Shown piece by piece: positions 33,713 through 53,012 of a stretch of 64,000 bases of DNA. Location of the stretch: assembly GCF_014651515.1 (NCBI RefSeq), contig NZ_BMXA01000002.1:248001-312000 (forward strand). The letters run 5' to 3'. The notes beneath the pieces were generated by a model that worked only from the letters and a program-made list of their open reading frames with translations, was not told the origin of the DNA and ran no database searches. The stretch comes from Arenicella chitinivorans (GTDB lineage Bacteria; Pseudomonadota; Gammaproteobacteria; Arenicellales; Arenicellaceae). A program made the position numbers and the translations under genes. Position 1 is the first letter of the stretch; each line of letters opens with the position of its first letter.

Positions 33713-34921
<1,209 letters not shown>

Positions 34922-46038: not shown

Positions 46039-46764
46039 CTAGGGTTGGGAACGGGTTTTATCGATCGCCGAGAGAATACCGCGTAGAATATTTAGCTCCA
46101 GCACGTCGGGTTCTGCGCGCGTGAATAGGTGTCGCAGTCGCTGCATTGTTTCACCCTGATGAGGACGCAAAAATTGAATGTCACCGAGTACCTGTTCCAG
46201 GTGACCATAAAACCGTTCGATGTCTGCCGAAGTCGGTAAATCACGCGGTGGTGAAACAACAGGGTTTGTGGCCACGCCTTGAGTCGCCGCTTTATACACC
46301 TCATACGCCAAGGTTTGCACCGCGGCGGCCATATTCAATGAGCTGTACTGCGGGTTGGCCGGAATCGTGACACGGTATTTAGCATGCTTGATATCCTGGT
46401 TATGCAATCCCATGCGCTCTGGGCCAAAGATCAGCGCAACCGGCCCTTTTTGTGCGTCCTGTACTAACAAAGAAGCAGCGGCTTCTGGATCTAATTCTGG
46501 TAAATCGTATCCCCGCGGGCGTGCGGTGCTTGCAATCACGGTGGTGCAATCCGCGATCGCTTCGGGCAGGGTGTCAAACGTGCGCGCGTTGGCCACCATA
46601 TCCGTCGCACCAGCCGCCATTTTGACAGCTTCTTCGGACGGAAAATCGCGAGGCGCCACCAAGGCCAAATCAGTCAAGCCCATGGTCTTCATCGACCGCG
46701 CCGCAGACCCAATATTGCCCGGATGAAATGTGCGTACCAATACAATGCGGATATTGTCCAACAT
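46039..46764 (-). CDS. trmJ: tRNA (cytidine/uridine-2'-O)-methyltransferase
   Basis: A 241-residue SPOUT-class methyltransferase that 2'-O-methylates position 32 of tRNA using S-adenosylmethionine. Start MLDNIRIVLVRTFHPGNIGS at the ATG at 46764; an earlier in-frame start gives an atypical 23-residue extension. NIGSAARSMKTMG, ALIFGPERMGL and IPANPQYSSLNMAAAVQ are the SPOUT knot motifs 1-3. In many gammaproteobacteria trmJ is near iscR or suhB, but here those are absent. Confidence 0.93.
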   Translation of the reverse strand: MLDNIRIVLVRTFHPGNIGSAARSMKTMGLTDLALVAPRDFPSEEAVKMAAGATDMVANARTFDTLPEAIADCTTVIASTARPRGYDLPELDPEAAASLLVQDAQKGPVALIFGPERMGLHNQDIKHAKYRVTIPANPQYSSLNMAAAVQTLAYEVYKAATQGVATNPVVSPPRDLPTSADIERFYGHLEQVLGDIQFLRPHQGETMQRLRHLFTRAEPDVLELNILRGILSAIDKTRSQP

Positions 46765-46935
46765 GGGTGACCTACTTAAGGAATATGCAATCAAAACAAA
46801 CCGCAAGGTACACGAGACTCGACCCAAGACCAAGCCGGATTAACCAAAAATGCCTCAGCTTAAAGGCCAATCCAACCTTGTGCATCTCGAGCCAGTTAAA
46901 TAGTGTCGTCCTCGCTAGGAAGACTAAACTCACTG

Positions 46936-47468
46936 CCATTCAAACTCAGATTAGCCCCACCATCACCCTAAGTTAGCCCAACCCCACAGTCACACTAAGT
47001 CAGTTCAACCCTGCAATCACCCTGAGCCAGACAACCCCACCGTCACCCTGAGCCAGACCAACCTCGCCGTCACCCTGAGCCAGACCAACCTCGCCGTCAC
47101 CCTGAGCCAGACCAACCTCACGATCACCCTGAGCCAGACCAACCTCACGATCACCCTGAGTCAGACCAACCTCACGGTCACCCTGAGCCAGACAACCTCA
47201 CGGTCACCCTGAGCCAGACAACCCCAACGTCACCCTGAGCCAGACAACCCCACCGTCACCCTGAGCCAGACCAATCCCACCGTCACCCTGAGCCAGACCA
47301 ACCCCACCGTCACCCTGAGCCAGACAACCCCACCGTCACCCTGAGCCAGACCAACCTCGCCGTCACCCTGAGCCAGACCAACCCCACCGTCACCCTGAGC
47401 CAGACAACCTCGCCGTCACCCTGAGCCAGACCAACTTCGCCGTCACCCTGAGCCAGACCAACCCAACT
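46936..47468. repeat. 26/27-bp tandem repeat array (minisatellite)
   Basis: About 17 clear copies plus two or three decayed ones at the left end. The unit is GTCACCCTGAGCCAGACC followed by AACCTCGCC or AACCCCACC; 26-bp variants lack one C in CCAAC. The left copies (46936-47013) are degenerate; the right copies are cleaner and run straight into a REP-like palindrome at 47469. No unique spacers occur, so this is not CRISPR. Antisense frames through it are by-products of repetition. The array fills most of the 820-bp gap between trmJ and the TonB receptor. Confidence 0.9.
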
Positions 47469-47501
47469 GTCATCCTGAGGCGCAACGCGCCGAAGGATCT
47501 C
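47469..47501. repeat. REP-like palindromic element, copy A
   Basis: A 33-bp imperfect palindrome: GTCATCCT-GA-GGCGC-AAC-GCGCC-GA-AGGATCTC. Arms ATCCT/AGGAT and GGCGC/GCGCC pair, with a GA/GA internal mismatch. Three further copies occur at 52205, 52839 and 52980. Its left arm GTCATCCTGAG is nearly the first 11 bases of the adjoining tandem unit. Confidence 0.85.
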
Positions 47502-47644: not shown

Positions 47645-47691
47645 TGAATACGTATGCAGAATATTCCCCCTAGTCATGAATACGTATGCAG
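47645..47691. promoter_or_regulatory. Twin operator-like sites before TonB receptor
   Basis: TGAATACGTATGCAG occurs twice exactly, at 47645-47659 and 47677-47691, 32 bp apart (about three DNA turns, so the same face). Each has the core palindrome ATACGTAT with a central CG, as in many LacI-family operators. They lie about 85-130 bp before the receptor ATG. LacI-type regulators commonly control such receptors, but none is in the window. Confidence 0.55.
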
Positions 47692-52204: not shown

Positions 52205-52235
52205 GGTCCTTCGACGCGTTACGCCTGAGGATGAC
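52205..52235. repeat. REP-like palindromic element, copy B (divergent)
   Basis: GGTCCTTCGACGCG and TTACGCCTGAGGATGAC form a diverged copy in the orientation opposite to copy A. It begins 4 bp after the halogenase stop, a typical place for REP elements. The flank after it (GGTTTGGGTTGAAGG) matches, in reverse complement, the CCAACCC-type sequence beside copy A. Confidence 0.7.
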
Positions 52236-52838: not shown

Positions 52839-52871
52839 GAGATCCTTCGGCGCGAAGCGCCTCAGGATGAC
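52839..52871. repeat. REP-like palindromic element, copy C
   Basis: GAGATCCTTCGGCGC, loop GAA, then GCGCCTCAGGATGAC. It is the exact reverse complement of copy D at 52980-53012, with 108 bp between them. Such an inverted pair resembles a REPIN/BIME, the form that RAYT transposases mobilise in other bacteria. Confidence 0.85.
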
Positions 52872-52979
52872 ATCGATTGGTGGTTGGGGAGTTGGGAGTT
52901 GAGTAGGATTCATCAAATGTCGATCGTTAAGTCAATCAGCGAACAATCAGTACTAATAAACACAAAACAAACCGATAAC

Positions 52980-53012
52980 GTCATCCTGAGGCGCTTCGCG
53001 CCGAAGGATCTC
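52980..53012. repeat. REP-like palindromic element, copy D
   Basis: GTCATCCTGAGGCGC, loop TTC, then GCGCCGAAGGATCTC. It is identical in inverted orientation to copy C and differs from copy A only in the loop (TTC for AAC). Confidence 0.85.

Follow-up and report, generated by a model that had tools for sequence, protein, structure and literature searches.

A minisatellite apparently derived from a single arm of a REP-like palindrome in Arenicella chitinivorans, and the tag-side half-REP arrays of other bacteria

The short extragenic palindromes that most resemble the element studied here are the CGTC REPs. As described in the main text of Di Nocera, De Gregorio and Rocco 2013 (PMC3733652), these carry an unpaired CGTC (or TGTC, CCTC) tag at one end, a stem of 8-9 bp that nearly always starts with AT, a loop of 4-5 bases and a short unpaired tail, most tails fitting CCA. 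According to the same text they occur mostly as inverted pairs with the tags outside, HT dimers being negligible and clusters rare, and no dedicated transposase was known for them in 2013. Consensuses are published for four CGTC families. The neisserial dRS3 repeats are equated there with CGTC-1, and the known GTAG REP/BIME clusters repeat whole REPs, not halves; that main text nowhere uses the words half, truncated or slippage. No description of half-REP arrays was found in the literature searched (REP sequence, half or truncated REPs, GIY-YIG, CGTC REPs, dRS3), most subscription papers lying outside the scope of the search.

The window analysed, a stretch of 64,000 nucleotides of Arenicella chitinivorans, contains at 47469-47501 (plus strand) an intact REP-like palindrome, GTCATCCTGAGGCGCAACGCGCCGAAGGATCTC, made up of the tag TGTC, the stem ATCCT-GA-GGCGC / GCGCC-GA-AGGAT and the tail TCTC, with a predicted DNA hairpin of -8.9 kcal/mol. 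Like the CGTC REPs, which are found in many phyla, it is a short extragenic palindrome with an unpaired TGTC tag and a stem starting with AT; it differs from them in the tandem GA mismatch that divides the stem into 5 + 5 bp, in its predicted loop of 3 bases and in its tail, TCTC instead of CCA. REPINs/BIMEs with RAYT also have REP pairs as small mobile units, but their tag is GTAG, whereas it is TGTC or CGTC here, and no Y1 transposase gene was found beside the REPs described here (0 of 12 Y1 loci).

On its tag side this REP closes a tandem array of 19 half-REP units (46962-47468, plus strand), which splitting at the anchor resolves into 13 copies of 27 bp and 6 of 26 bp, each consisting of the arm RTCACCCTGAG and the spacer CCAGACCAACCYCRCS. 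TRF placed the array at 46955-47479 (period 27, 19.7 copies, score 714). The initial annotation had described a minisatellite beside a REP-like palindrome at 46936-47501, and the TRF array, the 19 units and the intact REP confirm it; its starting point is explained by a degenerate outermost unit at 46935-46961 (plus strand), a probable 20th, in which 17 of 27 positions agree with the unit in register. Copies had also been described as clean near the palindrome and degenerate at the far end, which is true for the three outermost anchored units (46962-47041, plus strand), with 2, 2 and 1 arm mismatches against 0-1 in the remaining 16. The array lies between a gene for a SpoU-family methylase (46039-46776, minus strand) and a gene for a TonB-dependent receptor (plus strand), which are divergently transcribed. 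As stops are present in all six frames across it, the array has no coding role.

The units share the tagged left arm of the REP in register, with 1 mismatch in 11. Allowing up to one mismatch, the window contains 18 copies of GTCATCCTGAG where 0.97 would be expected, and 15 of the 18 are supplied by the array and its REP. Among 200,000 shuffled units none carried the arm in register at up to one mismatch, and 3 carried it in any register on that strand (1.5e-5). The unit does not reproduce the REP arm as it now stands: clean units read GTCACCCTGAGCCAG at the position where the REP reads GTCATCCTGAGGCGC, and not one of the 16 is an exact match to today's arm. This difference implies that the last expansions copied a diverged half-REP, from unit to unit. 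The proposal that the array grew from the REP-like arm is thus well supported, by the register, by the same site in a sister species, by other REPs of the same genome and by many other bacteria. The accompanying suggestion that amplification began at the REP end holds in part, since the far end is degenerate, but recent growth went from unit to unit.

The same REP is present at the same site in the sister species (G006), where the flanks align at 83% over 147 columns upstream and at 89% over the REP and downstream. Two clear half-REP copies of period 27, and a third, degenerate one recognised by eye, stand at this site, in a draft assembly of 390 contigs and 82% completeness in which copy number may be underestimated. 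The half-REP arm there, GTCATCCTGAGGCG, is identical to the arm of the G006 REP, while the spacers differ from each other and from that of the window. In G005 the same gene pair encloses an intergenic space without a REP, and no REP was seen in the intergenic space displayed for G017. The REP was therefore gained before A. chitinivorans (G000) and G006 split, and the arrays then diverged separately: an array grew at a resident REP independently in two species at one site. As in other bacterial minisatellites and VNTRs, the units are 26/27 bp long and head to tail, variants are shuffled and copy number varies between species (19 here, two clear and one degenerate in G006); the window array differs in that the founder palindrome is still attached at one end. 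Ahead of the receptor gene, a direct repeat of TGAATACGTATGCAG (47645-47659 and 47677-47691), conserved in G006, G005 and G017, is probably an operator. Because the annotated start of the gene, at 47654, falls within the first copy, the true start is probably further downstream.

Two pattern searches recovered 21 intact REPs in this genome (7 with GAAGGATC, 14 with GAAGAATC), the tags of the others being mostly CGTC. Arm-like arrays on the tag side, at up to 3 mismatches, accompany four of the 21, so that adjoining arrays are not confined to the window: besides the window REP, these are C3:455678 (7 or more units, period 22, with the arm kept and differing spacers), C7:123471 (3-4 units, period 26) and C7:122584 (2 degenerate units). 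The G006 orthologue of the C7:123471 REP has at most one degenerate half copy. A diverged arm-like array, 23 bp x 2.4, is found on the tag side at C2:1012237. At C2:322604 (L434 near 1500, minus strand) an 8-bp x 11.6 array of CGTCACAC sits directly on the tag side and retains the tag only, with one genuine right-arm half on the other side of the REP, and the C8:1261 REP has a 30-bp x 2 repeat that lacks the arm.

Within the window, two further intact REPs, 52839-52871 (minus strand) and 52980-53012 (plus strand), are inverted partners with their tags facing inward. The former has no half-REP copy; the latter has none within 3 mismatches save a 3-mismatch match 50 nt away. CCAACC-type sequence had been noted in the flanks of these other REPs, and it is indeed present as CAACTCCCAACTCCCCAACCACC on the tag side of the first, but nothing of the kind flanks the second. 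The best Rfam match over this pair (MIR8643, 52840-53011) scored 30.4 bits, the gathering score being 135, and was taken as a chance hit on the inverted repeat. A degenerate REP at 52206-52235 (minus strand), just after a tryptophan-halogenase gene, has an intact REP as its equivalent in the sister species. A search for the window unit itself returned, in the whole genome, 17 array units at up to 2 mismatches and two scattered 2-mismatch words; the unit was absent from the rest of this genome and from 60 relatives, so it was never met there away from its REP.

Half-REP arrays are not restricted to this genus. When GTDB representatives were scanned for two exact left arms separated by 5-35 bases, at least 120 stretches emerged, and the 80 loci listed belong to Bacillota, Bacteroidales, Acidobacteria, Gamma- and Alphaproteobacteria, Actinomycetota, Planctomycetes, Cyanobacteria, Patescibacteria and others. 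Among these 80 there were 127 arm pairs, in which the first copy was a half in 124, with the right arm following directly in 74 of the 124. When 86 chains were followed to their end under a loose right-arm pattern, 2 ran off a contig and were dropped; of the 84 complete ones, 81 ended in a right arm and 3 did not. Periods across organisms ranged from 17 to 45. Half copies on the tag side also occur in a second CGTC-REP family, GTCATTCCCGC..GCGGGAATCC (56 half and 18 full pairs), whose consensus we take to be that of dRS3 and which has a perfect stem, unlike the window's family. Spacers are pyrimidine-rich, the fraction being 0.64 in the window's family and 0.79 in the second, compared with 0.48 and 0.50 in the DNA 21-40 bases upstream.

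These half copies are strongly, though not absolutely, confined to the tag side. Across 369 genomes of the class, left-arm pairs gave 115 matches in 7 genomes and right-arm pairs 4 matches in 3 genomes. Three of the four right-arm pairs proved to be complete REPs, in tandem or abutting, and the fourth was the real half at C2:322604; at least 3 of the 38 left-arm matches listed, of 115, were likewise tandems of full REPs. Counted by genome the difference is small (7 vs 3, p = 0.34), the excess being one of matches, mostly in G416 and G174. In viral contigs the window's family gave 28 left-arm stretches against 1 right-arm stretch, which was not a REP, and the second family 45 against 8, the 8 comprising three whole REPs, one real right-arm half and four unrelated sequences. 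Over 90 REPs in 0.70 Mb of G416, a count in which both ends of one paired element enter as two REPs, tag-side halves were found at 22 of 90 and tail-side halves at 0 of 90 (p = 1e-7). When REPs were picked regardless of arrays (80 loci listed of 107 and of at least 120 stretches, duplicates and REPs with less than 80 nt of flank being dropped), a tag-side half was present at 13 of 188 and a tail-side half at 1 of 188 (p = 0.0015), or 5/87 and 8/101 against 1/87 and 0/101 by family. The genuine right-arm halves are thus one in this genome, one in L322 and one in the array-blind sample. This genome hinted at a tag-side hotspot for tandem repeats of every kind, but the array-blind sample did not bear it out: TRF repeats reaching the arm numbered 14 against 7 of 188 there, with no significant one-sidedness in either family (p = 0.21 and 0.75).

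Unit length tracks REP size (rho 0.46, n = 123, p = 6e-8). In 113 of 123 cases the copied part extends at most 3 nt beyond the hairpin apex. The correlation of shared prefix with apex is weak (rho 0.23, p = 0.012), and an 11-base search anchor forces a shared prefix of at least 11 in most REPs. A breakpoint lying exactly at the apex was consequently not retained, the relation being weak and partly forced by the anchor. In two sets of single-half arrays the spacer matched the DNA upstream of the half over a mean suffix of 2.18 bases against 0.85 expected (n = 77) and of 2.32 against 0.82 (n = 25). Matches of at least 4 bases were seen in just 14 of 77 and 5 of 25, and matches of at most 1 base in 44 of 77 and 11 of 25, so that most single-half arrays are not visibly simple tandem duplications; L194, L259 and L276 are clear cases among the minority in which the spacer repeats upstream DNA. 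In G416 the same upstream DNA is seen both with and without an added half. These with-and-without pairs and the repeated spacers would fit a copying process that halts in the palindrome and restarts slightly upstream. A gradient from clean to degenerate units ran in the expected direction in 6 of 12 arrays and against it in 1, with 5 ties (p = 0.11); arrays of at least 5 units gave 6 for, 0 against and 3 ties (p = 0.03). Both tests exclude the first unit, the 15-array version (p = 0.004) being biased by a finder whose limit was 1 mismatch for the first unit and 4 for those after it. The gradient across other arrays is accordingly suggestive, not firm.

We consider it somewhat probable (about 60%) that the minisatellite descends from one arm of the REP-like palindrome, by polar duplication of the tag arm with a short pyrimidine-rich flank and then by ordinary slippage. 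A CGTC-type REP would have arrived between trmJ and the TonB-dependent receptor gene in the ancestor that A. chitinivorans shares with G006, and its tag and left arm, with about 12 bp of pyrimidine-rich neighbouring DNA, would have been duplicated on the tagged side, leaving half-REPs (a left arm without a right arm) in tandem just upstream of the intact REP. Once two arms were adjacent, units could slip or recombine unequally in the ordinary way, and in A. chitinivorans this may have raised a diverged half-REP (GTCACCCTGAGCCAG) to 19 copies, the older units at the far end meanwhile decaying. Slippage between units suffices for the 19 copies. The first half may have been a copying accident that stopped inside the palindrome and restarted a little upstream, and the asymmetry presumably resides in the REP itself, as a strand-specific hairpin or through an enzyme recognising the tagged arm. 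The d(GCGAAGC) hairpins are specially stable; strand-specific stability was rejected as the source of the asymmetry on DNA nearest-neighbour energies, the predicted means for the two strands (-4.2 vs -3.8 kcal/mol) differing too little. More tentatively, and with less than even odds in our judgement, tagged REPs of at least two CGTC families in many phyla may continually shed one-sided half-copies and so found minisatellites, which would need a process that distinguishes the tagged arm, such as a tag-nicking or tag-binding enzyme or a one-strand hairpin.

The tag-side rule would be accounted for directly if half-REPs were surplus termini of a mobile element, a postulated enzyme for the movement of CGTC REPs recognising the tagged arm, making or capturing extra arms, and the composite moving as a unit. 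Two places in G383 share a half-REP, a spacer and a REP pair and differ from the outermost tag outward, the order half, spacer, REP recurs at several places in the contig IMGVR 3300037258_000931, and many paired REPs of G416 have an identical half and spacer on both outer ends. The G383 and G416 composites seem moved or mirrored as units, so a mobilising enzyme may have a role. Paired elements may, however, merely carry halves made earlier by slippage, and no such enzyme was found: a Y1 transposase was rejected as mover, with none of 12 Y1 loci in 5 genomes lying near a CGTC REP; single-domain GIY-YIG genes come within about 1.5 kb of a CGTC REP at 4 of 13 loci fetched from REP-bearing genomes, and the only GIY-YIG of the array-rich G416 is UvrC. 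We regard such an origin as unlikely on balance. Still less probable is that the repeated arms are a row of protein-binding sites (transcriptional or nucleoid, for example) under selection, in which the spacing matters and not the spacer. The arm is retained while spacers differ in G006 and at C3, and the window array does lie between two divergently transcribed genes, but periods vary from 17 to 45 between organisms, halves accompany a minority of REPs (13/188), the G005 locus lacks the REP, and anchored searches favour conserved arms by design. Unit-to-unit growth, units that no longer match the REP arm exactly, the CGTCACAC array that keeps the tag only and the armless repeat at C8:1261 would all suit an ordinary minisatellite whose last unit by chance resembles, or received, a REP. 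That account, the least probable of all, is largely refuted by the sister species, where a like arrangement occupies the same site; similar arrangements beside further REPs in the genome and across many phyla, and a register match unreached in 200,000 shuffles, also oppose it.

If the minisatellite did descend from the REP arm, the locus is a visible birthplace of a bacterial minisatellite with its founder attached, the relatives showing no half, one, few or many. Half-REP arrays are also ready-made variable markers. The one-sidedness of half-REPs at CGTC REPs gives a direct clue to the way these elements are copied, and is a more interesting result than the window array itself.

Several further observations concern the arrangement and neighbourhood of REPs. 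An inverted partner stands on the tail side of 54 of 90 sampled G416 REPs; the window pair (52839-53012) has its tags inside. Paired REPs in G416 (L351 and others) bear matching half-REP arrays on both outer ends within longer inverted flanks, as if copied from side to side. On the C7 contig, copies of a second REP-like repeat (TCATTGCGAG...GTGGCAA) lie interspersed among the CCTGAG REPs (L075 7781, 8253, 8431), and L075 4703-5493 is a 199-bp x 4 tandem repeat whose unit contains the REP-like GTCATTCTGAGCTGCAACCCGGTGAAGTATCT. A single-domain GIY-YIG nuclease gene lies between CGTC-type REPs in this genome (L075 7606-8577, equal to G000:C7:122584-123501) and in G006 (see also L108), and such a gene adjoins half-REP arrays in L148 (1397-1672) and L129; it is possibly a partner gene of CGTC-type REPs. 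Elsewhere in the window, 34010-34316 is a putative collagen-like coding repeat of 45 bp x 6.8.
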